A model generated the notes under the pieces. That model did no database searches and was not told the DNA's origin. It was given only the letters and a program-made list of their open reading frames with translations. A DNA stretch of 64,000 bases, from positions 63,984,782 to 64,048,781 of the forward strand of contig NC_083344.1 in NCBI RefSeq assembly GCF_019175385.1. The letters are read 5' to 3'. The first letter of the stretch is position 1; every line of letters begins with the position of its first letter. This DNA is from Lycium barbarum. Taxonomy: Eukaryota; Streptophyta; Magnoliopsida; Solanales; Solanaceae. Positions 350 to 38,368 of this stretch are shown here, piece after piece. A program made the translations under genes and the position numbers.

Positions 350-391
350 TCTTTTTTTATGGATGTGAAGCGCGCCGCACTTATAAAGGAG
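350..391 (+). other. Element A leader stem-loop with GCGCGC loop
   Basis: The arm at 351-360 pairs with 382-390 using several G.U pairs, and the inner arm GGATGTG pairs with CGCACTT except at one position. The loop carries the palindrome GCGCGC at 370-375. Homologous hairpins occur at the same place in B, D and E. Confidence 0.65.
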
Positions 392-494
392 TGGCTGCGG
401 GGCATTTAGGAAAAATGACCAATCTTATTAGATGGTGCCATAGAGCCATGTTATATGATTTTCTCCTCCCTAATTGTGTGTTATGATTTTTGCA

Positions 495-1870
495 ATGCCG
501 GTAAAGAGAAAAGCCACAGCCGCCCAGAAAGGCACGGCTACGACAGAAAGGCAGATGGAAAGGGAGCCACCAACAAATATAAATGAAGGTGAATCTCATA
601 ATGAGGCTACACCCAATACTTCTCACACTCCTCCTACTCTAGAAGAACAAGAGGGGGATTCAGCTCCGGATCCTATGCCTCCAGTTCCTCCACCGGGTAC
701 TTCGGGTCAACAAATGACCGAAGTTATTCAGTTATTGACACAGCTAGTTGCCACACAGGCCCAGCGGCAGAGTTTGGGTCCAAGAGACAAGGCGACTAGT
801 GCTGGAGCCCACAATTTCATGAGTTTAAATCCCTAGAATTTTTTGGGTCAAAGCCGGATGAAGACCCGCAAGGTTTTATTGATGAGATGTTAAGGACGTT
901 GAGAATCATCCATGCCTTCGATATTGAATCTGTGGAGTTGGCATCTTATAGACTCCGGGATGTAGCGGTCCTATTGTATAATAGTTAGATATCTTAGAGG
1001 AAGAAAAATGCACCTCCTCCGGTTTGGCAGGAATTTATAGATGCTTTCCTTCGTCACTATTTTCCACCCGAGGTTTGAAGGGCCCGTGCTGACAGGTTTC
1101 TGAATCTAAAGCAAGGGAATATGAGCGCTTGAGAGTATAGTCTCTATTTCAATTCATTGGCCCGGTATGCTCCCACTATGGTAGCCGATATGGGAGATAG
1201 AGTACACAGATTTGTGAGTGGCTTAAGGCCACATTTGTTCAAGGATTGCTTGACAGCTTCATTGCAAGAGGGGATGGATATTTCCCGTATTCAGGCTCAC
1301 GCCCAAAACATGGAAGAGCAGCAACATCCACAAAGGGGCGAGCGCGATATAGATAGAAGGCCGAGTCAGAGGGCCAGATCTGTTAGTAGTGAGTATAAAG
1401 GGGGTCAGCAACAGTATTCAAGACATTCGGGCCAGTCCGCAACTAGTGCACCTTTTCGGTTCGCGGGAAGGAGATTTGACCGACCCATTTATTCAGGACA
1501 GGGTCAGAGCTTGAGATCTTTAGGTTCCCAGTTTGGAGGTAATTATAGTCAGAGGAGACCATCGATCCCACGATGTAGTCGGTGCAACAAGTTTCATTCG
1601 GGCCCGTGTCGCCAAGGTTCGGATGCTTGGTATGCTTGTGGTCAGGTTGGGCATATGATGCGAGATTGTCCATCAATGGGTGGTAGAGTTGGGGCTCAAC
1701 CCACAGGATCAGCAGCTGGTTCTTCCTCATCCGTGCGCCCCGTAGGGCAGACACCCCAGATTCCAGCTGACCGTGGTAGGGGTAGAGGGGGAGTATCCAT
1801 TTCAAGTGGTACCCATCCCTGTATTTATGCTCTAGCCGGACGCCAGGATCTTGAGTCCTCCTCGGACGTG
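495..1870 (+). pseudogene. gag: Element A gag remnant
   Basis: This encoded the capsid/nucleocapsid polyprotein that coats element RNA. The start at 495 (MPVKRKATAAQK) matches the starts in B (13344) and D (28183). A 1-bp loss near 833 shifts the frame at the LNPPEF position. Stops follow at about 985, 1000, 1076 and 1132, two of them of the CGA to TGA type. The frame then stays open from 1157. The nucleocapsid zinc knuckle at 1628-1669 should be CX2CX4HX4C, but its first cysteine is tryptophan ([14 protein letters not shown]), so zinc binding is probably lost. No functional Gag could be made from this copy. Confidence 0.92.
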
Positions 1871-3148
1871 GTTACAGGTATATTATCCATATTCTCCCAT
1901 GACGTTTATGCATTGATTGATCTGGGTTCCACGTTGTCTTATATTACTTCTTATACTGCTGACCGTATTGGGGTGAAACCCGAGCCAATTAAACCTTTCG
2001 AAGTATCTACTCCGGTTGGTTATCCCGTAACGGCGAGTCAAGTGTATAAAAATTGTGTGCTTGTGGTATGTGACCGCCAGACAACAACTGATTTGATTGG
2101 ACTAGAAATGTTGGATTTTGATGTGATTATGGGCATAGATTCGTTGGCCTCTTGTTATGCTAACGTGGATTGTAGAACGAAAATAGTTCGATTTCAATTT
2201 CCAGGAGAACCAGTGCTTGAATGGAAGGGTAATACAGCGTCTCCAAGAGGTAGGTTTATTTCCTCCCTTAAGGCAAGGAAGATGATAGCTAAAGGATATA
2301 TTTATCACCTAGTCCGAGTTCATGACACCGAAGCAAAGCCACCGACTTTTCAATCCGTCCCGGTAGTATACGAATTTTCGGATGTATTTCCAGATGAACT
2401 TCCAGGCCTTCCTCCGGAACGAGAGATTGATTTTGCTATCGATGTGTTGCCGGACACCAAGCCTATATCTATTCCTCCTTACCGAATGGCTCCTGCAGAA
2501 TTGAAAGAGCTAAAGGTAAAACTGAAAGATTTGCTTGAGAAGGGATTCATTAGGCCCAGTTCATCACCATGGGGAGCATCCGTCCTATTTGTGAGAAAGA
2601 AAGATGGTTCCCTACAGATGTGCATAGACTACATTCCTAAAACAACTTTCAAAACAAGATATGACCACTATGAATTTCGGGTGATGTCATTTGGGTTGAC
2701 CAATGCTCCGGCGGTGTTTATGAATCTAATGAATAATGTATTTAAGCCCTTTCTAGACCTATTTGTGATCGTGTTCATTGATGACATCTTAGTATATTCT
2801 CGGTCAAAAACGGAGCATACAGATCACTTGCGTATTGTCCTTGCAATCCTTCAGGCTCGGGATTTGTATGCTAGATTTTCAAAATGCGAGTTTTGGCTAA
2901 ATTCTATGACTTTTCTGGGCCATATTATCACAGCGGATGGCATCCGAGTAGATGTTCTAAAGATTGAGGCCGTGACGACTTGGCCAAGGCCTACAACGCC
3001 TACAGAAGTCTGTTGGTTTTTTGGATTGGAAGGTTACTGAAGAAGATTTGTGGAAGGTTTTTCCTCTATTTCAGCACCATTGGCGAAGTTAACTCAAAAA
3101 TCAGCCAAATTCCAGTATACTGATGCTTATGAACGCAGTTTCTAGGAA
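1871..3148 (+). pseudogene. pol: Element A protease and reverse transcriptase, internally deleted
   Basis: The frame continues from gag, so Gag and Pol were one polyprotein. The protease site reads [11 protein letters not shown] at about 1910-1942, against DPGS in B. The reverse transcriptase starts around 2440. Its YxDD-type motif is FIDDILVYS at 2774-2800. At 2632/2633 the protein jumps from MCIDY directly to [10 protein letters not shown]. Compared with B this removes 48 codons in frame, including the block with the first catalytic aspartate ([10 protein letters not shown] in B). Stops at 3038 and 3144 end the region. The enzyme is dead. Confidence 0.92.
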
Positions 3149-3685
3149 TTGAAGGATAGACTAGCTTCAGCCCCAGTCCTGACACTTCCAGAAGGACCAG
3201 ATGGTTATGTTGTGTATTGTGATGCCTCTGGTGTTGGGTTAGGCTATGTGTTTATGCAGCACGGTAAAGTTTTTTCCTATGCCTCAAGGCAGATGTGGAA
3301 ACATGAGAAGAACTATCCAACCCATGATCTTGAATTGGCCGCGATTATTCATGCGCTAAAAATGTGGAGACATTACTTGTACGGAGTACATGTTGATATT
3401 TATACAGATCACAAGAGTCTCCAATATGTCTTCAAACAAAAGGAGTTAAATCTTCGGCAAAGACAGTGGTTAAAGCTACTGAAAGATTATGACGTAAGTA
3501 TTTTATACCACCCCGGAAAGGCGAATGTAGTAGCCGATCCACTTAGCCGCAGATCAATGGGAAGTCTATGTGAGGTTCCTTAGGAAAAGACAGAATTAAT
3601 TCGTGAGCTCCACCAGCTAGCCAACCTCGGAGTTCGCCTAATTGATTCAGGCAATGCAAGAATTGGTATTCACAACCCAACTATT
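3149..3685 (+). pseudogene. pol: Element A RNase H domain
   Basis: This domain would remove the RNA strand of the RNA-DNA hybrid. It is in the same register as the upstream reverse transcriptase but lies between stops at 3144 and 3581. Expected acidic residues are visible: [24 protein letters not shown] and [10 protein letters not shown] (normally ADALS). The linker after the TAG at 3581 stays in frame to about 3685. Confidence 0.9.
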
Positions 3686-5195
3686 TTGTCCTTAGATATG
3701 GAGGTGAAGGAGCGTCAATATGAAGACCCTCAGTTGAGCCACGATAGAGATACATTTCCTGAGAAAGAGAAGTTGCCATTTGAAGTTTCTAGAGATAGAG
3801 TTCTTAGATACCGAGATAGGCTATGTGTTTCAAATGCGGCTGGACTACGTCGTCGGATTCTAGAAGAAGCTCATTACAGGAGCGACAAAGATGTATCACG
3901 ATCTCAAGCTAATGTATTGGTGGGATAGAATGAAGAAAGACATAGCAGAATTTTTAGCTCAATGTGAAAATTGCCAACAAGTGAAAATATAGCATCAAAA
4001 GCCACGAGGATTATCACAAGCCATGGAAATTCCAGCCTGGAAATGGGAAGTGATTAACATGGCTTTCATTGTAGGCTTGCCTCGTTCTCGGAAAAAATAT
4101 GACTCCATATGGGTGATTGTTGATAGACTCACGAAATCAGCTCGTTTTCTTCCAGTTAGAACCACATATTCGGCAGAAGATTATGCAAGGTTGTATCTTA
4201 AAGAGATTGTGCGACTTCATGGTGTCTCGATATCCATTATTATAGATAGAGGAGCACAATTTACTGCTAAATTCTGGAAGTCCCTTCAAGAAGGTTGGGG
4301 TACTCAGGTAAGGCTTCGCACAGCGTTTCATCCAAAAACTGATTGACAAGCCGAACGCACCATTCAGACCTTGGAAGATATGTTATGGGCATGTGTGCTA
4401 GATTTCAGTGGTGGCTGGGATGATCACTTGCCTCTTATTGAGTTTGCATACAACAACATCGATCATTTCAGTATTCAGGTGGCCCCGTATGAAGCTCTAT
4501 ATGGAAGAAAGTGTAGGTCCCCAATTGGATGGTTTGAAGTAGGAGAGATACAACTAATAGGTTAAGAGTTGATTCAACAAGAGATAGAAAAGATCAAGGT
4601 TATTCGAGGCCGATTGTTGATAGCTCAAAGTAGCCAGAAATGTTATGCGGATAACCGTCGGCGAGACATATAATTTCAAGTTGATGATTGGGTATTCCTA
4701 AAAGTATCACCGATGAAAGGCGTGATGAGATTTGGCAAGAAGGAAAAATTAAGTCCTAGATATATTGGACCTTATAAAATCATCCGCAAGATAGGCCAAG
4801 TAGCTTATGAGTTGGGTTTACCTCCAGAACTTGAATCTGTACACCCAGTCTTTCATCTATCAATGCTCCGCAAATGTGTTGGAGATCCAGCTAGAATTGT
4901 ACCGGTGAATGATATCCAAGTTACAGAGAAGTTGGCTTATGAAGAGGTGCCTAAAGCCATATTAGATCGGCAAGTACGGAAGCTTAGAAATAAAAAGGTA
5001 GCCTCGGTTAAAGTCTTGTGGAGAAACAATAATCGAGAGAAAATGACGTGGGAAGTAGAAGAAGTTCCAAATATCCGCAACTGTTTCCACCGCCGAAAGA
5101 AGTTCAAGATGCGATGCCATTATCGTAAGGTATGTAATGCTTCATATAATGCTTTTGGTCGCGTGTGGCCCTATTTTCTTACCATTGTGCTGTAG
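3686..5195 (+). pseudogene. pol: Element A integrase with chromodomain-like tail, broken
   Basis: The zinc-binding N-terminal part begins in the old frame. It loses several codons around 3877-3882 (the YSIHPG region), which switches the reading frame, so 3928 is a false end and the true frame resumes through 5195. In the core the first catalytic aspartate is alanine (NMAFIVGLP, where B has NMDFIAGLP), the second is kept (IIIDRGAQFT), and a TGA stops the TDGQAERT motif at 4345. Another stop at 4563 interrupts the tail. The C-terminal VKVLWRNNNREKMTWE segment is the chromodomain-like tail of this group, thought to steer insertion into chromatin. Confidence 0.91.
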
Positions 5196-5330
5196 CCTTG
5201 TGAGGCGTTGTTAATGTTGGATGTTGCGATAGGGTGGCAGTGCCATATTACAGGGGAAACTCTGGTGAAAATTTTGTAGAACCCCTAAGAATTTAACATT
5301 CGGGGACGAATGTTCTTATGGGGGGAGAAA
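5196..5330 (+). other. Element A 3' untranslated region, hairpin and polypurine tract
   Basis: A conserved block 'ttacaggggaaactctgg' near 5250 is shared with B and F. At 5295-5314 lies AACATTCG-GGGA-CGAATGTT, a perfect 8-bp stem. It is followed by the purine run ggggggagaaa (about 5320-5330), the primer site for plus-strand DNA. Confidence 0.88.
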
Positions 5331-7594
5331 TGTTACACCTTCCATTTTGTTGCAAGTAGATTTTGGCTTATTGGCGGTGTGTACCTTCGGTTCGGTAATC
5401 CGCACCAGATTTTTGGATATGAAATATTTTACCTTGTATGTGTACATGAGTATAAGTATGCGTTCTTGACATTACGAGGGAAATAGAAGTGAAACGAATC
5501 GAATCGAAGCAAATGGAGCAGCTCCGAAAAAACTGCTGAAACAAGTCAGCATCGATGGCCCAAAGGAAGACCGTCGACACGTTGACAAGCCGTCGTTTGG
5601 CACCTTCGACAGGGTTCTGCAATTAGATTTCTCAGGCGGCTATTCGACTGGGCATGTCGACGAACCGTCGACCCGCGGATCTGGAAGTTTCCAGCCCTGA
5701 TTATAAATATAAGATCCCATGTTTTTATTTAGTTATTCTCCCAAAAACAAATCCTACATATCTCTAGAACTCTCCAAAACCCTCCCTCTATTTCTACAAC
5801 AAATCTATACCAAAAACCAAGATCAAAAGCAAAGATTAAGAGATTCAAGTACTAGGAAGCCTATTAGGGTTTGTGAAGAGTAAGAATTTCTTTGGAATTC
5901 AAGTGGGGATTTCATTCTAATGGAGTAGATTGACTCAAGGCTTGTTCCTAAGTGATTAAGGTATGTTTTATGGTTATTTCACGTTATTGAGAATATTGAG
6001 GGGTTAAAAGACTTGGATCATGAAAGAAGGTGGAATGTGAGCTTAAATGTGGAAATATTGGTATGTTGGGTAATAAGTTAATGTGAATCATGATTCTTAG
6101 TATGAAATGAATATAATCTCGTTATAGATGATGCTAATGTTGTTGTGGAAATGTTATGTGAGGAATAAATATGATGTTGTATTATAATTATGGTTATGGA
6201 CACCCTCAAAGGGAATTGTGAGAATTGAATAATGCTTAGCTTAAACAGGTTATTGATTAGGATATTGTGGGTGTTGTTGATGGTTGGGAATTGTTACAGT
6301 TGGAGAAAGTGGTTGAAACAACGGGGATATTGCCCAATTTTCGTTAGCTCTTAGTCACTCTAGCTTAAGCTTCAGTATGTCGTCAATTATCTAATCTTAG
6401 TACGAATTCCCTTAAAGGTAGAACCCCAAGCTTAAGAGGCACGCAATTAGACGATAAAGTTGAAGAGATACAAAGGTATGTGAGGCTAGTCTCTTCTTTT
6501 CCAAAGGCATGACTTTTATATATGTGGTGATTTCTTTCCGGTAATTTCCATGACCTTCTTACATTCTGAAAGATGAAAGCTAAAAAGTATCAACAGTTTC
6601 CCACGATATAGAGATGACATATGTTCTATGATAATGATATGATGTTTTTATGATTCTAATGATCTTTACATGATCCCTTGATGCTATTCGTTGTGGTTAG
6701 ACTCACCTTAAAATGCTAATTCCTTCAAGGTTAGACATGATGATCATGACTACTCCATAATGGAATCAGGGGTTCTCGACCTTACGTCACCCCGATAGAG
6801 TTGTAGCTTTAATTGATTTCTAATGCATGTTTTACGATATGTACATGATGAAGAGATTACACCGCGCCTAGATGGTCGGGCATGACACCGCAAAGGCAGG
6901 CGGCTTATGATTATGCCGTGCCCAGATGGCTGGGCATGACACCGCTAAGGTGGGCGGCTTAAGATAACACTGCGCTTAGATAGCCGGACATGACGCCACT
7001 AGTGGGCAGCATGTGATGGTTACCCAGACGCCGGTTAACAATGATGGTATATTTGATATGCATAACATGTGTTTTCCTTTAAAACTTAAGCAGGTTATTT
7101 CTTCACCTCATGTTTCATTATTTCTTTATTATGCTAGTATTGTTCATGCCTTACATACTCAACACATTTTTCATACTGACGCCCTTTTTCTTTTTGGACG
7201 CCGTGTTCATGCCCATAGGTAGACAGGGAGACGGTGCAGACCCGTAGGAGCTCATCTTATCAGCGGATTCACATGAGCACTCCACTACTCCGGAGGTGCT
7301 ACTTATGGTCATAGTATTTTGTATATATATTCTGGGTATGACGGGGTCCTGTCTCGTCCTTATGTTTTAGTACTCTAATAGAGGCTCGTAGATACGTTTG
7401 TGTGGGTAGTAGATGTTCCATGATGACTACGTTGTATTTTGTATATCATTTTTGCAGCCGTGACGGCTTATATATATGCATGTGTTGCCTTCGAGATTAT
7501 ATGTGTCCAGGATGAGCATGATGACTAGCATAATGAGTGGTGCTCGGTAGTCAGCTCAGGGTACCCGTCATGGCCCTCTAGTCGGGTCGTGACA
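5331..7594 (+). repeat. Element A 3' LTR
   Basis: This 2,264-bp LTR starts TGTTACACC and ends GTCGTGACA. It contains splice-donor-like AAAG|GTATGT at 6476, a 54-bp triple repeat (6857-7018), and a downstream block 'actgacgccctttttc ... catgcccatag' (7177-7220) that looks like a branch point, pyrimidine tract and splice acceptor. The same arrangement recurs in the LTRs of B, D, E and F. Confidence 0.93.
6857..7018 (+). repeat. 54-bp tandem repeat, 3 copies, in the A LTR
   Basis: Copies start near 6857, 6911 and 6965, each built on 'gatggNcgggcatgacaccg' and 'ggcggctta'. The third copy is most diverged. A related array occurs in the F LTR at about 52460-52620. Confidence 0.85.
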
Positions 7595-7992
7595 AATAAT
7601 ATAAATATTATGTTTAAAAAATCATATACTACATTGACTCGGCATACATGTGTAATGTACGTGCCGAGAAACTAGTTACCTTAATTTATTTAATAGCTTA
7701 AATATTAAACTTTTCCTGTATAAGAGTCACATACTATATATACTCCATAAGAAGTCTCTGTCTTTCTCCTCACTCCATCAACTATTATAATTCATCGGAG
7801 TAGAAGTCTCTTTCTTTCTCCTCAATAAAAATCATAATTTCTCCATGGATTTTTGTGTATGAGTTTCTGCCATCCGAGAACATCAGAAATCGATGATGAA
7901 ACAACTTTTCTTAGAAGATACAAAAATATGTTTTTTTATGATCAAGACAACAACAATAATTGGGAAGAAAGTATGTGATTAAGCTTTTAATC
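7595..7992. other. Spacer between elements A and C
   Basis: These 398 AT-rich bases match none of the LTRs here and are the best candidate for original host DNA. Visible structure: a hairpin at 7638-7668 (CTCGGCA ... TGCCGAG) and a repeated pyrimidine motif 'agaagtctctNtctttctcctca' at about 7751 and 7804. No convincing reading frame is present. Confidence 0.6.
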
Positions 7993-8954: not shown

Positions 8955-10602
8955 TGTCACGGCCCATTTCGATTAAGTCCCGCGGGCACTTACCTTTCCC
9001 ATCTCGGTAAGCGAACGCTTAACCTAGCAATAAATGAAGATATAAATAAATAAATCAAGCAAGGGGAATAGAATGATTACGTAAGTCTCACAATAATATA
9101 TAATAAAAATAGTGCTGAATAGAGAAAATACCTCCAGGGTCTGGTCTAAGTCATACAAGAGCATCTAAATGAAATAGTATAAGTCTGGAATTTAATAATA
9201 CATCAATCTGTCTATGTCTCAGAGTAGAAAAGTAAGACATAATAATAAGAGGAGTCTTCAAGGCGGCGAGCGACTCATGCTCACCTCGAAAACTCGATGC
9301 TAAAGCTGAAGGCGACTATACGCCACGGGAAATGGAGGAAGACTCAACCTGGTACTCTGCATTCATAAAAGAATGCAGCAAGTGCAGATCAGTACAAAAC
9401 CGCAGTATTGGTAGGTATCATAGGCCAACTAAGTATAGCTAACATAATTCAAACAATAAAGCAAGATAGGCAGATAAATCAACAAGTATAAGTCAAACAT
9501 AATCGAAACCAAGTACACGTCATCACCTAAGTAGAGCATCTAATCCCAAATGTACCAAGTCTCAATATGTTCAATCCGGATCCAACATCACAAGTAAAAA
9601 CACCAAATTATCTCAATATAAGCCGTGATGCAATGCAATGCAATAATGTATGAATGCCATCCAAATGTTGTGTACACATGTACTCCGGACGGAAGTATTG
9701 ACGTCTCGGTAGCACAACCCAAGGTGACTCGTGAATTCTAAGTGCCACTCATCCCAGATCTTTGACCAACAGACAGACGAGACTTGGATCTTTGCCCACG
9801 GAGGTTCTCACCGGCACCACCTGGGGGGACCGGTGGAGTTCATGCACTCACTCAATCCATGATTTTATGACTAACATCAGATATCGGACTCTCACGTCAC
9901 TCTCATTTTAAAACTGAGCCCAGCTCATCACAGTATTTCATCAAGTACAAACAATGTATCAACAGTATATCATGAGAGTGCGTGCAATGCATGTATCAAC
10001 ATCCATAATCAGATCAATATCACAAGTACCAGCATGGATACGCCAACGACATACAAATGTCACAAGTACCAACTTGGGTACGCCAACAATATATCAGTAT
10101 CACAAGTACTAACATGGGTACACCGATAATATCATGAAAGACTACACAAGTCATATATAACTCTATCCTCATATCAACGTCAAACCGTAAGATACTGCAA
10201 TATCACAATCAAGAAGGAACAACATATTCAAATATCTACTAACAGCATGTGGCATCAAGCCAACACAATAAACCAATCAAGTCACAACACAACGGGGTGG
10301 CTAGCCCCAATCACACAACAGAGCCCAACCTAAGACAATATCCAACCCAGCTTCATACCTGTAGGTTTACATGCTTGCTCCGACAATATCATCTAAATAT
10401 ATGCTTCGTTGCACGAAGTCTCACCAAGGGTATGCCATAACCTACCTGGATGGCCGAACAGCAAACAATAACCAATCACCCTTTTGCCTTGCCCTTCTAC
10501 TGAGCCTCAAGATCAAAGAAGTCTAGGCATATTCAAAATCTAGATTAGAAATCATGAAGAACGGTACTAATATTGCTATCATTCAATTTAGGTCAAACCC
10601 AA
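8955..10602 (-). repeat. Solo LTR J, 3' part
   Basis: No gene is seen here. The 1,648 bp contain loose repeats of 'cacaagtaccaNcatgggtacgcc' between about 10020 and 10130, and the LTR terminus TGTCACGGCCC at 8955. Confidence 0.8.
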
Positions 10603-13133
10603 TGTTACACCTCAAAAATTTCCCCGCGAACGTACAGTGGATAGGCTAACAAAGGGCATAGCGTATACGATGTTTCAATAAGAAGGGAACGATGTTTGAT
10701 TACCCTAAGTAAGATTCCAAAGGCAATTGCAATAAGAGATAGGTTATGCTCCATAATGACTAACTACAGGTTCTGAAAATGTGTAAAGTTGCAGATTTGT
10801 ACTTTGGCCAGTTGATCGTAAAAATGAAATACGGACCGTAAAGTGGTATACGACCCGTAAACTGCCATGTCGTATTTCAACTTCAAAACTTCAACTTTCT
10901 GTCAAATGCTTGAATGATTAAAGACGACTTCAAATACGGCCCGTAAACTGTGTTCGTAAACCACCATGTCTCAGCCTGACTTTTTGGTTCTGTTATGATT
11001 AAATACGACCCGTAAACTGGAATACGGACCATAACTGAGTTTACGACCACTGTGCACTTTCGACTACTGTTCATTTCAAATCAGATTTTAAGTCATTAAA
11101 AAGGGGGACTCAAGCTCGTTAATTCATTTCACGTCCACACCCCTTCTCTCTAAAACATCTCTCTACATTTATTCCATGAGAATTCAAGGATTATTAGTGA
11201 TCAACAACATAAACCAAGTGAATCAAGTGTAAGAAAACCCATTGAAGATCATTCAAGCCAAGAAATCCCAATAGAGATGAACTAGGGGTTTTTGCTCAAG
11301 TGGAGTATTATTAACCAAGGCTTGTTCCTACAACATCTAAGGTACGATTTATGGTATTTATATGTTGTTTAAGGTAATTGAGAGTTGAGATACTTTAATT
11401 GTAGAAGGGTATAGAAAAATGGGTCATGAATGTGGAATAATGCCATTTTGAGAAATAGCTTGAATTGAGTTATAATTTTTGAAGTGTTGTGACGTAAATA
11501 TGTTATAAATGATGTTGAGAACATGAGATGAGAAATGTATGTGAAAGGACGTCGTCGTGTGTTATGGCCATGGATATGGATGATTGAAAGTAAGTCTAGA
11601 ATATGGATAATGTGGATGAATAATGACTATCGTTATAGTATTGTGAATGTATTATTCATGTTTGAGAGTTGTTATACGCTACAGAGGAATGTCGTATAAA
11701 TAGAGGAGACGTTGCCTGATTTTCTCTAGTTTTTGTCATGTGTGCTAGCTATCGATTCTAATGATAGTATGACTTTAATGAAGTTAGAGACGTGAGCTTC
11801 GGAGGAGAACGCACAAGTGTAGAATAGTTGAACAGAAAGGTATGTAAGGCTAACCCTTCTTTCATAAGACATGGTTCTTTGGCCAAACGTCCAAGTCTTC
11901 TATAAGACTATGATATCTTTCAAATGATTTGATCTTCCGAGCTTGTAAGCTCACGATTCTTGATACGCTACAATTGTACTAAGTTCCTCGTATGACGAGT
12001 AAGCCTATAAAGATAGATGTGATGAACGACGATAATAGTGACAATGATATGGAAGACGACTATAGTAGTAATAGCGATGATGATAACGATGACGACGATG
12101 ATAGTAATTATGATAGTAAAGATACTTATGAGCCATTATGTATATGTATCTATGTATGACTATTAATGGAACCCCGAGCTTATGAGGCCGGGTAGGATAT
12201 GTAAATAAATATGTATATGATTATGTAATGCGCGCGCACCTCTGCAGATGGTACAGATAACCCTGACGCCCTGGTAGGGCCAGGTAGATGTAGCCCTGAC
12301 GCCTCGGTAGGGCCAGGTATGTGTAACCTTGAGCCTTGGTTGGCCAAGTATGTATGAAACACCGATCCTGCATGGACGGGTATGCTATGTATATGATATG
12401 ATTGTGTATATGACATAGACACGAGATTGTATACGAATACGAGTACAAATATGGAACGGATACGATTATGGGTACGGATATGGCTATATGTACACAAATA
12501 CGCATTAGAAATGGAAAATTCCTATGAAAGGCAAGTAAGTGCTTATGACAATGATATTACTATCTCCCATCCCGTGCTACCTTTCATGTTGCTTATTATG
12601 ATTCTACATTGATATTGATCATGCTTTCATACTCAGTACATTCTTCGTACTGACGTCTCTTTTGTTTGTGGACGCTGCGTCATGCCCGCAGGTGTACAGG
12701 GAGACAGGATTGACCCATAGCTACATTCTCTAGGACTACATAGCAGAGCTCCATTTCATTCGGAGCTATAGCTTTTGGGTGCTTATTCTTTTGTGTATAT
12801 AATTATGGGCATAGCTAGGTCCTGTCCCGCTTATATGATATGTTATACTCTCCTAAGAGGCTCGTAGACATGTGTATGTGCTAGGGTATGTACATTGTCG
12901 GCCTATATTTTGTATATCTTTTGTTAGCCTTGTCGGCTCATGTACATTGACGTGGTATAGATGCCAATGATGATATAAAGGCATTGTTGTCCAATGGGAC
13001 TAGTACGACTGATGAATAGAAAGGTATGTTTAATTATGTGGCTCACCTAGATGAAAGTGTAAGTGCAAGCGAAGGGGTGCCCGGGTGGGCTTGCACCGGG
13101 CGCTCGTTGCGGCCCCCTAGACGGGTCGTGACA
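10603..13133 (+). repeat. Element B 5' LTR
   Basis: This 2,531-bp LTR starts TGTTACACCTC and ends GTCGTGACA. It contains repeated palindromes of the TACGGNCCGTA type (10826-11045), donor-like AAAG|GTATGT at 11840, a GAT/GAC-rich tract (12021-12122), a 33-bp triple repeat (12258-12354), and the 'actgacgtctctttt ... catgcccgcag' block at 12649-12691. Confidence 0.95.
12258..12354 (+). repeat. 33-bp tandem repeat, 3 copies, in the B LTR
   Basis: The unit is about 'taNccctgacgcc' plus 'ggtagggccaggtatgtg'. It is repeated in the 3' LTR at 20019-20115, so the array predates the insertion of B. Confidence 0.85.
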
Positions 13134-13137
13134 AAAG

Positions 13138-13149
13138 TGGTATCAGAGC
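13138..13149 (+). other. Element B primer binding site (tRNA-Met type)
   Basis: The sequence tggtatcagagc lies 4 bases after the LTR end and matches the complement of the initiator tRNA-Met 3' end used by many plant LTR elements. Confidence 0.95.
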
Positions 13150-13192
13150 AGTTCAGTCCTAGGGTGTGTCTACGAGCCGTGTCTAGTAGAGT

Positions 13193-13232
13193 CTTTGTTA
13201 TGGGTGTGTTGCGCGCCACAGTTATAAACAAG
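13193..13232 (+). other. Element B leader stem-loop with GCGCGC loop
   Basis: CTTTGTTAT pairs with ATAAACAAG except for two positions, and GTGTG/CACA closes a loop carrying GCGCGC at 13211-13216. It is the homologue of the hairpins in A, D and E. An acceptor-like TTTCAG ends at 13341, two bases before the gag ATG. Confidence 0.75.
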
Positions 13233-13343
13233 AAGCTGCAGGCATTTTAGGAATGATTGAGCTTCTTTCCTCATAATAATCGTGCGATAGAGCTATGATA
13301 TAAGAAATTCTTGTCCCTTAATCGTGTGTTGTGTATTTCAGAA

Positions 13344-18149: not shown

Positions 18150-18353
18150 GGTATGTATGATTTCCTTTTCATGCTTTCGGTCGTGTGTGGCCATAGATAT
18201 GTTGATATTGTAACGTAGCCCTGTGAGGCGATGATATTATGGGTTGTTGTGACAAGTGAGTAGTGCCAAATTACAGGGGAAACTCTGGCAAAATTTTCGT
18301 AGGATCCCGAGTGTTTAACATTCGAGGACGAATGTTCCAAAAGGGGGGAAGAA
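18150..18353 (+). other. Element B 3' untranslated region, hairpin and polypurine tract
   Basis: It contains 'ttacaggggaaactctgg' (about 18270), the perfect hairpin AACATTCG-AGGA-CGAATGTT at 18317-18336, and the purine run aaaaggggggaagaa at 18339-18353 directly before the LTR. Confidence 0.92.
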
Positions 18354-23300: not shown

Positions 23301-23303
23301 AAT

Positions 23304-23315
23304 TGGTATCAGAGT
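23304..23315 (+). other. Element C primer binding site (tRNA-Met type)
   Basis: tggtatcagagt, 3 bases after the LTR end, with one mismatch in the last base against the other elements. Confidence 0.85.
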
Positions 23316-27600: not shown

Positions 27601-27969
27601 CAGCAGGTATACGGACCATATTCCTAGTGCCCTATCAGCAGCATTCGACAGCGCTCCAGTTGTTCCGGAGCCTTATTTCATCGGTACTATTTTGTGTATG
27701 TATTTTCGGGCGCGATAGTACTCGGCCCTTACTCTGTATAAATGTACTATGTCTAGAGGCTCGTAGACAGATATACACAGTCAGCTATGTACAGTTTAAT
27801 GTATTTTATTCCGAATGGTCCGCGTTCTGGTGTAACGCGATATTAGAAAGTTTACTGCAAATGTTAATGTTTAGAAAAAAAAAAATATGGCACTGTTTGT
27901 ACAGGATAGCTAAGGGGTGCTCGGTACAAGTATCAGGTACTCGTCACGGCCCCTGGTCGGGTCGTGACA
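24673..27969 (+). repeat. Element D 5' LTR
   Basis: Starts TGTTATATCCCGC and ends GTCGTGACA. It includes the near-palindrome GCTGCCGAAATTTCGGTAGC at about 25951, donor-like GAG|GTATGT at 26093, a roughly 107-bp tandem duplication (27127-27342), and 'tactgacgtcccttcttg ... catgccgcgcag' (27555-27598). Confidence 0.95.
27127..27342 (+). repeat. About 107-bp tandem duplication in the D LTR
   Basis: Two copies share 'ggttgggagagccg', 'tgtattcgg', 'gataccgt' and 'gaataag'. The array is repeated in the 3' LTR at about 32847-33062. Confidence 0.8.
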
Positions 27970-27973
27970 GAAG

Positions 27974-27985
27974 TGGTATCAGAGC
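27974..27985 (+). other. Element D primer binding site (tRNA-Met type)
   Basis: tggtatcagagc, 4 bases after the LTR end, with no mismatch to the consensus seen here. Confidence 0.96.
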
Positions 27986-28028
27986 AGTTCGGTCCTAGGG
28001 TTTGTCTACGAGCCGTGTCCAGTAGAGT

Positions 28029-28068
28029 CTTGTCTATGGGTGTGTAGCGCGCCATACTTATAGACAGG
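28029..28068 (+). other. Element D leader stem-loop with GCGCGC loop
   Basis: CTTGTCTATGGGTGTG pairs along all 16 bases with CATACTTATAGACAGG if G.U pairs are allowed. The loop carries GCGCGC at 28047-28052. Compared with E, a T-A pair has become a C-G pair within the outer stem (TTTAT/ATAAA against TCTAT/ATAGA). Confidence 0.82.
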
Positions 28069-28182
28069 AGGCTACAGGGCATTTAGGAAATGTGACCTTC
28101 TTTGTATTCTGAAATCGTGCGATAGAGCTATGTTACCAGGCTTCCATGCTCCTTTTCTAAAACCGATGTTATGGTTTCAGTA

Positions 28183-29601
28183 ATGCCGCCGAAGAGAAAG
28201 GCTACGACGGCCGAGAAAGCCAAGGGGGCGGCGGCCCGCAGAGTTGAACAGGAGCTAGACGAAGAAGAATCTCACAATGAAGCTCCCCCTCAGACTGTTC
28301 CTGCACCCCCTGCACCGGCAGAGCAGGGAAGAGCTCCAGCTCCAGCCCCCGCACCTCCAGTTCCACCGCCAGCAGCTCCGGGCCAGCAGATGGCAGAGGC
28401 CATCCAGTTATTGACCCAGCTAGTCGCCGCGCAAGCTCAGCGGCAAGATGTGGACACAGGCGACAGGGCGGTAAGCGCAAGGGCCCGAGACTTTATTACC
28501 CTGAAGCCGCCAGAGTTCTATGGATCGAAGCCAGAGGAGGACCCGCAGGGTTTTATAGACGAGATGCTGAGGACTCTGAGGATCATACATGCTTCGGATA
28601 CGGAGTCCGTAGAGTTGGCTTCATACAGGCTGCGGGATGTGGCAGTTCTGTGGTACGGTAACTGGATATCATCGAGGGGAGCAAATGCACCCCCTCCGGT
28701 TTGGCAGGAGTTCACTGAGGCTTTCCTATGACATTTTCTACCGCCAGAGGTTCGACGGGCTCGAGCCGATATGTTCTTGAACTTGAGACAGGGAAATATG
28801 AGCGTTCGGGAATACAGCCTTCGTTTCAACTCGCTCGCCAGGTATGCCCCCGCCCTGATAGCAGATAGGGGAGACCATGTGCACCGATTTGTAAGCGGGC
28901 TAGGGCCACATTTGGTTAAGGAGTGTTTGACGGCCTCACTCCAAGACGGGATGACTATTACTCGCATCCAGGCCCACGCCCAAAATCTGGAGGAGCAGTA
29001 TCAGACACGGAGAGAGGAGAGCTATCCAGATAGGGGTTCCAGAAAAAAAGGCAGATTTTCTAGGGGTAGGAGCGAGTATAGAGGGGGGCAGGCACAAGAG
29101 CAATCTGGGTATTCGGGCCAACCAGCGGCCAGTGCACCTCCTCGATTAGCGGAATGGGGATTTGACCGACCTACCAATTCAGGAACAGGACAAGGCTCTA
29201 AGGCTTCAAGACTCCAGTACAGAGCCGATTCTAGCAGGACGGGGCTTCCCCCACCACGATGTGCTCGGTGTGGCAAGCCACACTCTGGGCAGTGCTACCT
29301 AGACACCGGTGGTTGTTTTGCCTGTGGTCGGACTGACCATTTTGTACGTGATTGCCCACTAAAGGATGGAGGAGGCCAAACTCAGCCAGCCGGATCAGCG
29401 ATCGGTTCGTCGTCGACCGTGCGCCCTCGTGGACAGACTTCTCAGGCTCCAGCAGGCCGCGGCCGAGGTAGGGGAGGAGCACCTAGTTCAGCCGGTCCTC
29501 CGCACCGCCTATATGCACTGACAGGACGACAGGACCCTGAGGCTTCCGCAGACGCGGCCATATGTACTTTTTCAGTATCCTCTGTGATAGACATGTGTTA
29601 A
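28183..29601 (+). pseudogene. gag: Element D gag, one nonsense codon
   Basis: Gag-only gene of 472 codons. The start ATG 28183 (MPPKRKATTAEK) corresponds to those of A and B and lies two bases after an acceptor-like TTTCAG. The N-terminus is basic, then Ala/Pro-rich. The capsid block ([33 protein letters not shown]) matches B. The zinc knuckle CFACGRTDHFVRDC (29314-29355) is intact. The reading frame is broken only by TGA at 28729-28731, where A and B carry an arginine-type position (CGA to TGA). The protein ends just after ALTGRQDPEAS, shortly before the place where the protease active site begins in B, so Pol has been cleanly removed. A sister copy without the stop could supply Gag in trans. 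Confidence 0.93.
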
Positions 29602-30394
29602 TTAATTCAAAATTTATTTTTTTCCCTATACTGTCCTCTGTATTACTGAACACATTGAGAATTTGGAAATTTGGACGGAAGTGGCCATACGCATAGGTAA
29701 AAGGCGAACACCCGAAAATTGCGAAGGTTAGAACTGTAAATAAAGGAAAAGACGTGTTACGCGGACGTTTCGAAAACTGCCGAGACCCCAACTCGTTCCA
29801 TATTATGCGGCATAAGTGGTACGAGGAAGCGGAAGTAAAAATATTGACACCGAGACATTGAAATGCATTAAAGCTTCAAAGTTAAGCGTGCTCAGGTGGG
29901 AGTAATCCCATGATGGGTGACCCCCTGGGAAATATGCTGAAAATTTCATAGATGCGGAAACAAGAGACGAGTGTAAAAGTAGGTAGCCCAGAGTAAATTG
30001 GGGTGTGGGAAGTGGTTAGAAACCCCACACGAGTCACATAGGCCGAGCCGGACTAGACAAACAGAAAAAGGGAAGTCGTGACAACGGAAAGCTTTGGGAA
30101 CGAAGGAGAAAAGTACAAATGTCAGGGTGAGGCCAATATTGAGTCCACACTAGCTAAGGCAAGGAATACCTAATATGGCGGCATACGGGAACATGTCTAG
30201 TGAGGGGATAGACGCAGCGGACGCCATGAAGAAGGAATTTCAACCGTAAAGGTCGTAAAAAGGGCAACCTAAGCTTCTAAGATGAATATGCTAAGCGACA
30301 GGAGGTATTTACAAAGGAGACCTCCCCGAAATATTGTACTACGCTATGAGCCAAGTTTAACATTCGAGGACGAATGTTCTGAAGGGGGGGAGGA
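29602..30394 (+). other. Element D 3' internal noncoding region with 5S-like block and polypurine tract
   Basis: This 793-bp stretch without a gene holds a 5S-rRNA-like segment (29862-29932), the hairpin AACATTCG-AGGA-CGAATGTT at 30359-30378, and the purine tract gaaggggggga at about 30381-30391. Its origin is not pol: I see no protease, polymerase or integrase remnant. Confidence 0.85.
29862..29932 (+). ncRNA. 5S rRNA-derived segment inside element D
   Basis: AGTTAAGCGTGCTCAG, GATGGGTGACC and CCTGGGAA occur in the order and close to the spacing of the internal promoter region (A box, intermediate element, C box) of plant 5S rRNA. AATGCA lies upstream, as in 5S, but about 10 bases closer. 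It is on the same strand as the element. The ends of a 5S gene are missing, so it is a relic or a captured control region, not a 5S gene. Confidence 0.82.
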
Positions 30395-33300
30395 TGTTAT
30401 ATCCCGCATTTTTCACATTCGGATAATTCAAGGCAATCGCGGGAAGATAACAAGCAAGGCCATATCTTATTTTGTTTGACATATGAGTTGCTTATGAAAA
30501 ACTTAGAAGTGGAATTAATAAGGAAGGTCAAGGGCATAAAGGGAAATTCGCAATATGACTCGTGAAAATATGGAAGAAGATGAAGGGCAATTTTGGTTAC
30601 ATAAACTAGCAAAAAAAAAAAAATACAAGTGGGCTTGAAAGTAAATATTTGGGAAATTTCTAGGCCCAACCGGCCAAGGACTTGGGTCCAAGCCCATATT
30701 GATCAAAAATTTGTCAATAAATAGGATGAGTAAGTCATCCTTATCTTGCTAACCTCTAGAAATTTCAAGACTTGAGGAGAAAAGAAAGAAGGAGAAAATA
30801 ACCTAGGCCATTCGGCCATAACAAGAATTCCCAAGAAAAATTTGCAAAAATTCCTCCAAAAATCATTTTCGACCAAGTGAAGGGTGCTTAACAAGGTGGA
30901 GTTGTTGTTGGAGCAAGAAAGGTTCAAAATCATACAAGTTGCCAAGAGTTAGGCAAATAAGAAGTTGAAGAAGATAGGTAAATTCTAATCTTGTTTTATG
31001 TGTTATATATGGTTTATATGTGTTGTAGTATGCTAAAATGGATGAAATTCATGAAGGAGAGAAATATGATATGTGGCCGTGTACCTATATGTATGTGTAG
31101 AAGCCATGCTTCAATTGTGTTAACTAGTATTTGGTTGTTATGTTTGTAAGTAATGTGTAGAAAATGAAAGTTGAATGAGTTGGAGAATATTGATGTTGTG
31201 TATGGCCGTGAGGTATAGTAATTTTATTATGTGTACATGGCCGTGTATATTGTATGTATGGCAATGTATATGTGTTGAAGAATGAAGAATAATGAGCAAG
31301 TTATATTCAATGTTGTAGTTGTTGTGTCGTAGATTTCATATCGCAAATAAAGATTTGGTGACCTTGGTGAAGTATTGGTAAGTGGGAGATTATGTATATT
31401 GGAGGACAATGTTCTTGCATGGATAGTAAGTAATGGTATTAGTATAATGTTGAGGAAATATATATTACAAGGTTGCTATTGTGTTTATTGAAGTTGGAAA
31501 GTTTTGAAGAAAGTAGCAAATTGATATCATGTGTCTTGAACTAAATGTGTGAATCACTAGTGTGATTATTGAGCTATGATAATAGTTTGGCCGGGTTTGA
31601 ATTCCCGGATTGTGTTTGTCAAGAATTTGGTTATATTGAATGTCGAGGATGGTGTATTTACAGAGGAAATGTTGCCGAAATTTCGGTAGCCAATTGTTTC
31701 CTTAAGGTGTTAACTCTAAGTATGCTAATGAGAGTTTTGGTAAAAATGACCAAATCGCAGATTTTGACGAGATTGTGACTCGAATTTGGAGTAGCTAAAG
31801 GAGCGGAAAGAGGTATGTAAGGCTTCACCTTTCTTTCTATGGCATGTCTTAACTAAACGAAGTCGGGTACGAGTCTCGGGGATAACCCTAATCCCCGGAA
31901 TCCGCACCTAAAGTTTTCAACTTTTCGTTCAATTGAATTGAAGTAGAAAGTGTGCAAAACGATGAAAAGACATTCTAGACCTCTATAACTTGCCTAAGCG
32001 GGACCCGATTACCCTAAGACTCATACAAGTAACGTTATGACACGTACTGTGGGTAAATTATATACGCTACCTCGTCCGGCCCGAGGTGGGCCCGTTACTC
32101 TCGGATTTTCCTATAATCTTGGTTAACGTACTTGAAGTGAATCAAAAGGGGGCCTTTGATCCCGATTTCGTCACCAAGTGATAAGTACTATGACTACTCC
32201 AGCGGGAGTGTTTCTATGAGGATAATGATAATGACAATGTCGGACAAGAGAATGTAGCTATGATAAGTACGACCGGAACGACTCTACGACTAAGCCAAGT
32301 ACTTCATATAAACATGAAAGCGATAAACTAATTGTTGAACCATATTTATATTTTCTAGTTATAACTTCATTTCTAAAATACCTAAGATTTCATTTTCGGT
32401 TACTGTAACACTATTTTCCGTTGATAGTTTCGCCTTAAAATACTTGTTCCTTCAAGGTGAGACAAAGCTATCACTAGCATTCCGTAATGTAATCGGAGGT
32501 CACCGACCTTATGTCACTCCGATGGATACATGATTTTCCTTGGCTCTCTTGTGTGCTTATATGATATAGGTACATAAAACGGGTATACGTGTATGGGTAT
32601 GTATATATATATGGTAAAGTAAATGTATATAAGACATGTATATGCATAAAAGATGAGTAAATGTATATGTATGTGTATGTGGGGAAAAAGGGAAGGGCCA
32701 CTGTTATATCACCACCTGATTCAGTTGGATTCCATCCTGGACGCGGGATGCCCGGACGCGGGATATGGGATGAGCCGTACGCGGCGTCTGTATATATATA
32801 TATATAATGTGTGATACATATGTGATGTACTATGTTGGGTCATCGTTGGGGAGGGGGTTGGGAGAGCCGGCTGTATTCGGCGTCTGTAAATGTAAATGAA
32901 AGATACCGTCTACTGAATTGTACTGTTTTCTGTATACATGAATAAGGGACACCGAGGGAGGGGGGTTGGGAGAGCCGATTGTATTCGGTGTCCGTAAGCG
33001 TGAGCAAATGATACCGTTACTGAAACGTACTGTTTTATTTCTGTACACGTGAATAAGTAATATAAAGATGTGATTCCTATGCCTATGAAAAGAAACGTTT
33101 CAAAGACGAAAAGACAAGCCTACATGACAGCAGGCCTAAAGAGGGGCCTTCCTATGTACAGGTTACGTTCTTGCCTCGTTATACGCCCTATGGCTCCGTG
33201 ATATTATTATTGATCGTACTTCATGTTACTGCTTGTATTGTTTTCCATGCCTTACATACTCGGTACATTATTCGTACTGACGTCCCTTCTTGTGGACGCT

Positions 33301-33688
33301 GCGTTTCATGCCGCGCAGGTCAGCAGGTATACGGACTAGATTCCTAGTGCCCTATCAGCAGCATTCGACAGCGCTCCAGTTATTCCGGAGCCTTATTTCA
33401 TCAGTACTATTTTGTGTATGTATTTTCGGGCGCGATAGTACTCGGCCCTTACTCTGTATAAATGTACTATGTCTAGAGGCTCGTAGACAGATATACACAG
33501 TCAGCTATGTACAGTTTAATGTATTTTATTCCGAATGGTCCGCGTTCTGGTGTAACGCGATATTAGAAAGTTTACTGCAAATGTTAATGTTTAGAAAAAA
33601 AAAATATGGCACTGTTTGTACAGGATAGCTAAGGGGTGCTCGGTACAAGTATCGGGTACTCGTCACGGCCCCTGGTCGGGTCGTGACA
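30395..33688 (+). repeat. Element D 3' LTR
   Basis: Near-identical to 24673-27969. Examples of differences: A to T near 31372, C to T near 31673, C to A near 31972, and shorter A runs at about 30611 and 33597. Confidence 0.96.
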
Positions 33689-33693
33689 GTATA

Positions 33694-35155: not shown

Positions 35156-38100
35156 TGTTATATCCTGCATTTTCGAACGTCGAATTATTTGTAAGCTGAG
35201 GTGGGGCCCACACATCAATATTTTTTTTGGGACATGTGAAAAGTTATATGAATCGTATATGTAAAGTTAAACACAACCCGTGAAGGGCCCTGGTGCCAAA
35301 TCAAAGTGGAAGCCCTCCAAACGAATATTTTTAAGAAAACGTTTTCGGATGACCTGATTTGGAGGGGAAAAAAACGGCATTATAAGTTTAGAATTTGGGA
35401 AAATTCCCAGAGATAAAAGTTGTAGATAATTGAAATAGCTTTCCAATGGTAGGTCGTGGGATCCCAGGCGACGTCGGTACAAGGAGATATGGACATTTTA
35501 AGGCGGAAAGGTCAAGCTGGGCAGTGAAATGGGCCCAACCCGATTCCAATCCGGGTCAGGCCCATTTCCTTATTATTTAAGGGAGTTTTCAGCCTCCTCC
35601 TCCACATTTCAGATCAGAAAAGATCCAGAAAATTCCATTAGAGAGAGAGAGAAAAAACTTCAAGGCTAAGAAGGTCATTTTGATCAAAATCCGAGCTCCG
35701 AATCCCGAAGCTCATGAAGAGAAAAACGTTGTATGTTGCGTTGCCTTCAATTTGAGATAAATATTGGTCTTGGGGGATGAAATTTTCGTGGTGGATCTTC
35801 TGATAAGGTATTTATAAAATTCCTTTTATGTTATTAAAGTGTTTATTTAGAGTTTTAACGAATTAGAACGGAGAAAACAACATTATAAACTCGTTTGTTG
35901 TTTTGATGAAATTTATGGGTGAGGGGCTGTTTTAATTGAAATTGATGGACTGATTTGAATTAATATTTTGGTTGTTTTAATCATGGATTATGTGAGGAGA
36001 GTGAAGGAACTTAATGGTTATTAAGTTGTTGTAGGAAAACATACAACTTTGTTATGGTTTATGTAAAAATGGAAATGAAAGTATCAAGAGGAAAATTATG
36101 ATTATTGTGGATGAATTTGGAAGATGGAAATGTATAATGAACTTGTATGTTGAAGGTTAGGAAAAATTGGAAAAGTAGTAGCTTAATGGAAAGTTTGAAT
36201 GTTCGCATACCTTATGAATATTGGGTGAAAATGGTATGGATGCTTCCGATGTATGTTGTAATGAATTTGGTGGGTGATGAATATCAAAATAACAAGTTTG
36301 GTTCGGAAATGTAAGTTTGAAACGAAAGATGTGTCGTTATGCCGAAACGATGGCTAGTGATGCCATAGTGTGTGTTTTAATGTCTGTTGTTGTTTTTGCT
36401 GTTGTTCTGGGTTGTTGTGTAGTGAATTGAGCCGAGCTAAGTCTCGGGGATGTCTTATATACAGAGGAAATGCTGCCGAAATTTCGGTAGGCAAACATGT
36501 GTTAAGTTGGATTATTGAAAAGTTTGAAACTAACAAATGGTAAACTTGACCATTTCTAGATTTTGGACGAGATTGGGATCGACGCCAAGCGAGCGTAAGG
36601 CACTATCGAGGTATGTGAAGCTTTATCCTTTGTTCCTAGGCATGTTCTGGATGTGATAGGCTCGGCCGCGAGCCTTAAGTACGACTCCGTTCTCCGGAAT
36701 TCGAGACGGAAAACCGCTCCAATTCCTTCAATTCAATTGAAGCTATTTTCTTACAAATTGCCTTTAAAGTGAATTTTTGTACAAAACTCCCCTAAACGGA
36801 GTCGGAACACTTCCAAACGATTATGGATGACCTCATAAGGTCTATTAGCGATAATTTACATATGTTGCCTCGAGTTGGTCCGAGGCGGGCCCGCAAGGCC
36901 CGATATCTTTGGTAATACTTTAAATACTTCCGTTTTGTCCGATTTTCTCAGAAACCATCTGAACTATTATTTTGATTATGATACAACTATTTTTATGAAA
37001 TTCTTATAAAATAACTTCTGAACATCTTAGAATCCGATTCTGATAATAATCTGTCGTGCCTTCCCAAGTAGGATATAGGCGCGTACTATGCATACTATCT
37101 GTATACTCTGATTTTGGCTCGCCGTTTGGCACCCTTTAGTCTGATTGAGTCTGTATGTATGTGGTTTCCCATGGATCTGTTCGTGGCTGTCTCAATGCAT
37201 TCCTTCACTGCGTCCCGGGCCAGGTTCTGTTATCGTGCATATTTCTCTGCATTGTTCACCGCGTCCCTCGGCGTACGGGCCGGGATCTGTATGTCTGTAT
37301 GATACTATGATTTGTGAATGGGGATGGCGGCCAGGATGGCATATGATCTGATCTGATTCTGTCTGTCCACCGCGTCCCGTACTAAGAGGGCCGCGTTCTG
37401 TTTACCGCGCCCCCAGACAGGGCCGGGATCTGTATGTTTGTATGCATGTGCCATCAGTATGTATATAAGCACATGCCTCTGTATGATTCTGTATGATTCA
37501 GTATGATTCTGCACTACTCTGCATGCATAATTCTGTCAGGTATACTTCTGTCCGTCCGTCTGAACTACGACTATGTCTGTATGTCCGTATGGATTCTGAT
37601 TCTGTATGTACGTATGGATTCCGATTCTGTATGTCCGTATGGATTCTGATTCTGTCTGTCTGGACCATGATTATATCCGTCTGTCGGGACTATGACGCTG
37701 TTTGTCCGGCTTATGAGCCAGTCTAGTATATTTATGCGCTTCCGGTCCAGATCATGATTATGTTTGATATATTTCTGCTTTACATACTCGGTACACTTTT
37801 GTACTGACCCCCGGTTCTTCGGGGGCTGCGTTACATGCCCGCAGGTACAGGCGCACTCGGTGACACGCCGCCAGTCTAGGGCACAGGTTCTGCTATCTTG
37901 AAGAGCTCCTTTTGATTCGGAGCATGTACTTTGGTATATATATCTTTTGTTTTCCGTATGCTCTGTATGTATGGAAGTTCTGGGTACGGCGGGGCCCTGT
38001 CCCGTCATATGATTCTGTATGTCTGTAGAGGGCTGTAGATAGATGTGTGGGTTACGGGTTTCGTCTGTATGTTAGCCTTATCGGCTTATCTGTAAATGTC

Positions 38101-38271
38101 TGCATGTTCAGGTTTATATATATGTTTGCGCGCGTGCCGTATCTGTATCGGCCTACTTCTGTAATATCCGTTTGAAAAAAAAAATTTGTACGATACGAAA
38201 TTCGGTCAGGTAGGTATGTACGCGTACCCAGCTAGGGTGCCAGTCGCGGCCCACGGGGTTGGGTCATGACA
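35156..38271 (+). repeat. Element E 5' LTR
   Basis: Starts TGTTATATCCTGC and ends GGTCATGACA. Inside: the palindrome CCGAAATTTCGG at about 36476, donor-like GAG|GTATGT at 36611, GC-rich repeats 'caccgcgtccc ... gggccgggatctg' (37205-37440), a 25-bp triple repeat (37577-37651), hairpin CCCCCGG-TTCTT-CGGGGG at 37809-37825, and acceptor-like 'catgcccgcag' ending at about 37843. Confidence 0.94.
37577..37651 (+). repeat. 25-bp tandem repeat, 3 copies, in the E LTR
   Basis: The unit is about ctgtatgtccgtatgga plus ttctgatt; the same array is in the 3' LTR near 42971-43045. Long open frames predicted here are by-products of the repeat. Confidence 0.85.
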
Positions 38272-38275
38272 GAAG

Positions 38276-38287
38276 TGGTATCAGAGC
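38276..38287 (+). other. Element E primer binding site (tRNA-Met type)
   Basis: tggtatcagagc, 4 bases after the LTR end. Confidence 0.95.
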
Positions 38288-38328
38288 GGTTAGTCCTCGG
38301 AATGTCTACAGGCCGTGTCTAGTAGAGT

Positions 38329-38368
38329 CTTGTTTATCGATGTGTTGTGCACCACATCTATAAACAAG
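38329..38368 (+). other. Element E leader stem-loop with GTGCAC loop
   Basis: CTTGTTTAT pairs perfectly with ATAAACAAG (9 bp), and GATGTG pairs perfectly with CACATC (6 bp) across one C/T mismatch. The 8-base loop contains the palindrome GTGCAC (38347-38352). This is the most regular of the four hairpins, in an element with no genes to conserve. Confidence 0.85.

Follow-up and report, generated by a model that had tools for sequence, protein, structure and literature searches.

The 64,000-nucleotide stretch of the Lycium barbarum genome considered here (contig NC_083344.1, positions 63,984,782 to 64,048,781; hereafter the window) is filled by nested long terminal repeat (LTR) retrotransposons, of which elements A, B, D, and E all lie on the plus strand and share a rod-like fold in the RNA leader between the primer site and gag. 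Taken together, the window's elements give above-cut-off Pfam matches to gag, RVP_2 protease, reverse transcriptase (RT), and gypsy-type RNase H, and a Chromo domain match at the integrase end scores 20.6 bits, under the cut-off of 25.1. We take these elements to belong to a Tekay/Del-like clade, and their binding sites are presumably primed by tRNA-Met. The elements, primer binding sites, and leader rods are as follows, with z taken for each whole rod.

1..7596, plus strand: element A; LTR ends 1-293 and 7318-7596, 88.4% alike; zinc knuckle, protease, and RT
296..307, plus strand: primer binding site of A, with two changes relative to TGGTATCAGAGC
336..405, plus strand: leader rod of A, a decayed copy; tip 350-391, palindrome GCGCGC at 370-375; z -1.3
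10601..20910, plus strand: element B; LTRs 10601-13134 and 18352-20910, 92.3% alike; gag, protease, RNase H, and the sub-cut-off chromodomain match
13138..13149, plus strand: primer binding site of B, TGGTATCAGAGC
13178..13245, plus strand: leader rod of B; tip 13193-13232, palindrome GCGCGC at 13211-13216; z -2.4
24672..33689, plus strand: element D; LTRs 24672-27970 and 30394-33689, 99.6% alike; only gag inside
27974..27985, plus strand: primer binding site of D, TGGTATCAGAGC
28014..28082, plus strand: leader rod of D, 27 pairs; tip 28029-28068, palindrome GCGCGC at 28047-28052; -37.1 kcal/mol, z -6.5
35156..43665, plus strand: element E; LTRs 35156-38272 and 40550-43665, 98.6% alike; gag and pol absent inside
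38276..38287, plus strand: primer binding site of E, TGGTATCAGAGC
38314..38382, plus strand: leader rod of E, 26 of 27 pairs; tip 38329-38368, palindrome GTGCAC at 38347-38352; -30.7 kcal/mol, z -6.7

The gag-coding stretches of B and D begin 3' of the hairpin, and relatives of gag occur in Nicotiana and Solanum. Element D looks young, given the likeness of its LTRs, and its internal region (27971-30393) holds gag in pieces within open stretches and shows no pol similarity. Compared by tblastn with the gag and pol proteins of the window, the internal region of E shows no similarity (best E = 0.39), in agreement with an earlier reading of this DNA, the original prediction, which had described E as lacking genes. 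The window copies of A and B are decayed.

When folded alone, the leader stretch of 68-70 nucleotides (nt) gives a single rod without branches in each of the four window copies, and the tip loop is the same throughout. Numbered from its first C, the 40-nt hairpin at the tip pairs 1-40 to 9-32 and 10-31 to 16-25, enclosing an 8-nt loop at positions 17-24 whose final six bases are the palindrome; below it, the lower stem of the rod pairs GTGTCY and GTAG upstream with GGGCAT and CTRC downstream. The rod helices of D and E are equal save one mismatch, and the local register differs in A and B. All 16 stem pairs are present in a relative of A (L104) and 15 of 16 in a relative of B (L015). With about 100 extra bases on each side (a context of ~260 nt), the hairpin is kept in D and E. 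A search of Rfam gave no match at gathering scores. All four hairpins and their loop palindromes are present where they had been predicted, but the claim that the best copy is in E did not hold, since the tip hairpin of D is the more stable (-19.7 kcal/mol for D and -15.7 for E; -9.3 for B and -8.7 for A, over 40-42 nt).

Could such a hairpin arise by chance and have no function? Among 300 dinucleotide shuffles of each rod, none folded as low as D or E, five folded as low as B, and 34 as low as A, so that the A rod is not significant alone; in addition, simple arithmetic leads one to expect a palindromic hexamer in about 5% of random 8-nt loops. Set against these points are the z values of D and E and the recurrence of the hairpin in the 1.67-Gb Lycium barbarum assembly, where a loop-blind pattern of 15 fixed bases with the loop left free matched 26,221 times forward and 26,214 times in reverse (52,435), compared with 9 and 6 matches (15) for a control in which the pattern was read backwards, an excess that indicates one repeated origin, not function. 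Because the rod itself, hairpin included, is nearly self-complementary, most sites match on both strands, and the 100 listed rows, which correspond to 52 sites, scale to ~27,000 genomic sites. These 52 sites, all on contig 1 at 1.8-15.5 Mb, are counted with one sense row per site and with copy ages not assigned; two of them (C1:4842997 and C1:15545935) are read as the reverse complement of the opposite-strand row, and they are pattern matches for which the primer site is confirmed at C1:11103006 (within L073) alone. The shared fold, together with the two-sided changes described below, led us to reject a chance origin, which we regard as highly improbable.

Further evidence comes from the comparison of D with E. 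Across the 69 nt of the two window rods there are 13 differences, among them two-sided changes at pairs 6-35 (C-G / U-A) and 12-29 (G-C / A-U), four one-sided changes that keep the pairing, one broken pair, and four changes at unpaired positions, two of which form the palindrome couple that turns GCGCGC into GTGCAC or the reverse. When the same number and kind of changes were placed at random, pairing was retained to an equal extent in 21 of 100,000 trials from E to D and in 1,799 of 100,000 from D to E. With the test limited to the 40-nt tip and a palindrome demanded as well, the corresponding fractions of trials were 0.00225 from D to E, 0.00002 from E to D, 0.0029 from A to E, and 0.0037 from A to D. 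An RNAalifold model of 12 copies chosen from the four families contains 34 pairs, three of them with two-sided changes. At pair 12-29, the 52 listed sites have G-C in 21, G-U in 21, A-U in seven, and non-pairs in three, and G-U intermediates mark the path expected for compensatory change. Outside the leader the identity of the two elements falls: the single blastn match of at least 150 bases at E 1e-20 surrounds it (27955-28128 / 38257-38426, 80.6%), and identity per 40 columns, which is 0.68-0.82 between 27937 and about 28134, drops to 0.17-0.45 past that point. A conserved island in element E, whose internal region lacks gag and pol, points to signals that act in cis. That selection acts on the RNA structure of the rod, as the original prediction had proposed, appears well supported by the two-sided changes, the G-U intermediates, and the retention of the structure in gene-less E.

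The loop itself was followed through the genome in several samples. Leader queries were evaluated on the best 40 scored of the first-look candidates (1,441 for B, 2,660 for D, 3,416 for E, and 3,039 for A), from which we examined 30 of 40 loci for each of B, D, and E; for A, the sample was the window copy together with 39 other places. For D, 18 of the 40 best-scored matches, the window copy among them, are identical over 151 bases. Every examined D loop (30/30) reads GCGCGC and every E loop (30/30) GTGCAC, and the outcome that the original prediction had named as refuting it, young loops that are as often non-palindromic as palindromic, was not seen in these samples. B has GCGCGC in 28 of 30 and GCACGC in two, and A has GCGCGC in 32 of 40, the other eight being single-step changes (31 of 38 are palindromic once A_L120 and A_window are excluded for register). 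All of these samples lean to intact loops, because the leaders used to choose them by similarity contain the loop. The loop-blind sites provide a check on this point: 44 of the 52 are palindromic (GTGCAC 31, GCGCGC 12, GCCGGC 1), the eight other loops occur once each, and none of the 52 has a purine at loop position 2. Two of the eight singletons, GCCGAC and TCTGGC, share the stem context of GCCGGC, and a third palindrome family is therefore likely, with the site at C1:13062920-13062954 as its candidate member. A pyrimidine at loop position 3 is found in 1,338 + 1,393 = 2,731 matches genome-wide and at three of the 52 listed sites, each with G at position 4. Taken at the level of sequence, the change between GCGCGC and GTGCAC that preserves the palindrome, and the one GCCGGC site, support a loop that would pair with itself.

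A second stem-loop, which lies just 5' of the polypurine tract, has a sequence (AACATTCG-loop-CGAATGTT) common to five elements of the window, gene-less E included.

40513..40534, plus strand: second stem-loop of E, GAACATTCG-AGGA-CGAATGTTC
30359-30378: like sequence in D
18317-18336: like sequence in B
5295-5314: like sequence in A
54324-54343: like sequence in a minus-strand element

Among the folds tried, the D and E stretches form this stem-loop and the B stretch folds otherwise. In E, it is not kept for a gag or pol protein.

On balance, we think it likely that the rod is a cis-acting signal in the genomic RNA of chromovirus-like Ty3/gypsy elements in Lycium, and that it serves dimerization through kissing loops. 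It is kept in the young families D (gag only) and E (gene-less) with up to 27 pairs, an 8-nt loop, and a 6-nt GC-rich palindrome, and initiation of dimers by a kissing loop is probably the best explanation of this combination. In the mechanism we envisage, two genomic RNAs would first contact each other by pairing of their palindromic loops, and the kissing complex might then open into an extended duplex, which is conceivable because the rod is nearly self-complementary. The RNA dimer would be taken up by Gag, with a helper Gag-Pol recognizing in trans the rod, the primer site, and the stem-loop that precedes the polypurine tract; D and E would keep these three features because the helper must recognize them.

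Several known systems offer points of comparison. The dimerization initiation site (DIS) of human immunodeficiency virus type 1 (HIV-1) prefers GCGCGC, GUGCAC, and GUGCGC (PMC5874298), and the HIV-1 SL1/DIS resembles the Lycium rod as a hairpin of the leader whose loop presents a GC-rich palindrome of 6 nt; the Lycium rod differs in belonging to a plant Ty3/gypsy element and in that its dimerization role is a prediction. Ty3 requires a 5' palindrome for dimerization in vitro, and deletion of PAL6 (CUGCAG) abolishes dimers (PMC11381356). That element is also of gypsy type and its palindrome sits in the apical part of a small hairpin close to the 5' end of the RNA, but PAL6 is, by its number, among three GAG palindromes and has another sequence, whereas the Lycium palindrome lies in the leader before gag. 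In barley, the Gag-less BARE2, which uses BARE1 particles, is reported to keep dimerization and packaging signals (PMC3735527), the same logic as that of gene-less E; the likeness is one of description, not of signal sequence or structure, and BARE1 and BARE2 belong to the Copia superfamily, unlike the Lycium elements. Fungal GalEa elements, also Copia, have a Conserved Hairpin Site directly 3' of the 5' LTR that includes a palindrome (PMC5445492). Here too a post-LTR hairpin is conserved, but no primer site is found in GalEa and its palindrome is in the stem, while the Lycium rod follows a primer site and has its palindrome in the loop. Kissing loops are reported to initiate RNA dimerization in Ty1 (PMC5454406), which is, unlike the Lycium elements, a Copia element, and for quadruplexes an influence on dimerization has only been suggested (PMC3902901). 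Since dimer signals are known in retroviruses and Ty3 and are reported for BARE2, the Lycium rod adds a candidate to a class that is already known.

No dimer hairpin of plant chromoviruses was found among the open-license PMC papers listed, as judged by their titles and the first lines of their abstracts, and a word search of a plant structured-RNA survey (PMC12218528) found transposon words absent. Among viral contigs, one pattern matched 10 stretches, with no primer site within the 80 bases before any of them, and another pattern gave no matches; an RT query gave eight stretches, none of which was confirmed. The single match among genome contigs lies in a Vibrio (L140), and the 5' motif of the rod was not found there with up to four substitutions allowed.

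A number of observations weigh against a kissing-loop signal and have to be set beside this picture. Some concern the fold: in the ~260-nt context, the window copies of A and B favor other folds, and the B and E representatives each carry one stem mismatch. Others concern its history, in that A to B is weak (0.048 in the random-placement test of the 40-nt tip that also demands a palindrome), few independent events altered a pair on both sides or replaced the palindrome, and the GCGCGC of A, B, and D may be a common inheritance. We found no covariation inside dead copies, where more pairs were broken than kept (27 and 13 in A, 12 and 5 in B). The loop gives further grounds for caution. In a set chosen by the upstream flank alone, comprising 37 of 40 copies, just 19 of 37 are palindromic (17 GCGCGC, 2 GTGCAC), and when 3' arms are swapped among these 37, pairing as good as that observed is reached in 93 of 2000 trials; two of them match the flank over 63 bases and the others over 64, two with indels (L151 and L177) are scored as poorly paired, and the remaining three of the 40 (L104, L105, and L108), outside the 37, are all GCGCGC. 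Where loop position 2 is a purine, in copies retrieved with a stricter context than the loop-blind pattern, three of the 100 listed (133 counted) are palindromic, with GAGCTC twice and GGGCCC once. In five of these 100 rows, positions 3 and 4 are both pyrimidines, and certain broken loops recur across the 100 (GAGCGC 18, GGGCGC 15, GGGCAC 13, and GAGCAC 10). Broken loops thus persist, some of them recurring in like contexts, and there could be small amplified groups that carry them. The GCCGGC group, finally, is a candidate resting on one of 52 sites.

The likeness to HIV-1 is affected as well. The palindrome of the HIV-1 DIS is flanked by conserved unpaired purines, which are missing from Lycium B, E, and most of D: on the 5' side, B and E both read TT and D reads TA, only A having AA, and the 3' side has C. 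With HIV-type purine flanks mostly missing, we class the rod as DIS-like in action, not as an HIV-type DIS. The original prediction had stressed that HIV-1 isolates use exactly these two palindromes; the hexamers are indeed the same, but the match is weaker than it sounds because of the possible shared descent of A, B, and D, the two CpG-type transitions between the hexamers, and the missing purines. Its view of the resemblance to lentiviruses as analogy is reasonable, and we reject homology with HIV-1.

Many of the non-palindromic flank-matched loops are one step off GCGCGC, and CpG-type changes account for nine of the 18 (GCACGC 5, GTGCGC 2, GCGTGC 1, GCGCAC 1), as expected for methylated elements. 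Alternatively, the conservation of the leader may reflect shared descent, or a function at the DNA level or of a neighboring feature, such as accessibility of the primer site, with the palindromes as by-products and GTGCAC derived from GCGCGC through two CpG decays. The single CpG-type steps in these old copies fit such an account, as do the two CpG-type transitions that separate the hexamers, the lack of covariation inside dead copies, and the conservation of the whole stretch from primer site to rod, beyond the paired bases. We nevertheless consider it improbable: CpG decay of GCGCGC cannot give GCCGGC, the loop seen at one of the 52 listed sites with two near relatives; pairs 6-35 and 12-29 have changed on both sides; and the identity of D and E falls beyond the leader.

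A further alternative accepts a role for the RNA and assigns it to another partner. The rod may be a Gag-binding hairpin for packaging, or one that controls translation or reverse transcription, with the loop kept for protein contact and the palindrome incidental. This could explain why stem and flanks are conserved past the needs of a kissing loop alone, element E would likewise require cis signals alone, and two palindromes make up 43 of the 52 listed loops. Self-complementarity would be unneeded for such a contact, yet GCGCGC, GTGCAC, and GCCGGC differ pairwise at two to four of six bases and are all palindromes. We hold this alternative to be possible, though not the likely one.

If the rod does act as a kissing-loop signal, the loop palindrome might also serve as a self-recognition code by which the GCGCGC, GTGCAC, and GCCGGC families sort their genomes into separate dimers, a speculative extension that we think rather doubtful. 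Calculated energies of self-pairing are -10.9 kcal/mol for GCGCGC, -7.9 for GTGCAC, and -11.7 for GCCGGC, and those of the crosses are -6.6 for GCGCGC with GTGCAC and -2.8 and -2.2 for the others, all values being for naked hexamer duplexes, not for kissing complexes. The margin of self over cross is small for GTGCAC with GCGCGC (-7.9 and -6.6).

Some other features of the window and of the genomic copies may be recorded here. In an open frame between D and E (34128-34757), probably a deleted pol fragment, a protease and an RNase H domain are joined. Short tandem repeats occur at 48711-49132 (about 210 bp twice) and, in the internal region of E, at 39933-40346. Elsewhere in the genome, rod copies are spaced at ~5.0-5.7 kb at C7:112766998-112777220, C6:71242983-71253899, C1:25236270-25264352, and C1:53645895-53656483, which suggests tandem LTR-internal arrays.

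Our findings bear on how the RNAs of plant LTR retrotransposons are paired, chosen, and packaged, processes that are poorly known. A compact signal with ~27,000 sites and a clear mutational prediction, kept in gene-less and gag-only families, makes dimerization and cross-mobilization testable in a plant. Were the loop palindrome a self-recognition code, the RNA of a gene-less parasite would be isolated from that of its helper, and recombination between them would be limited, while the particles of the helper would still be used. The natural variants of the loop also make it possible to ask why distant retroelements arrive at the same few palindromes.

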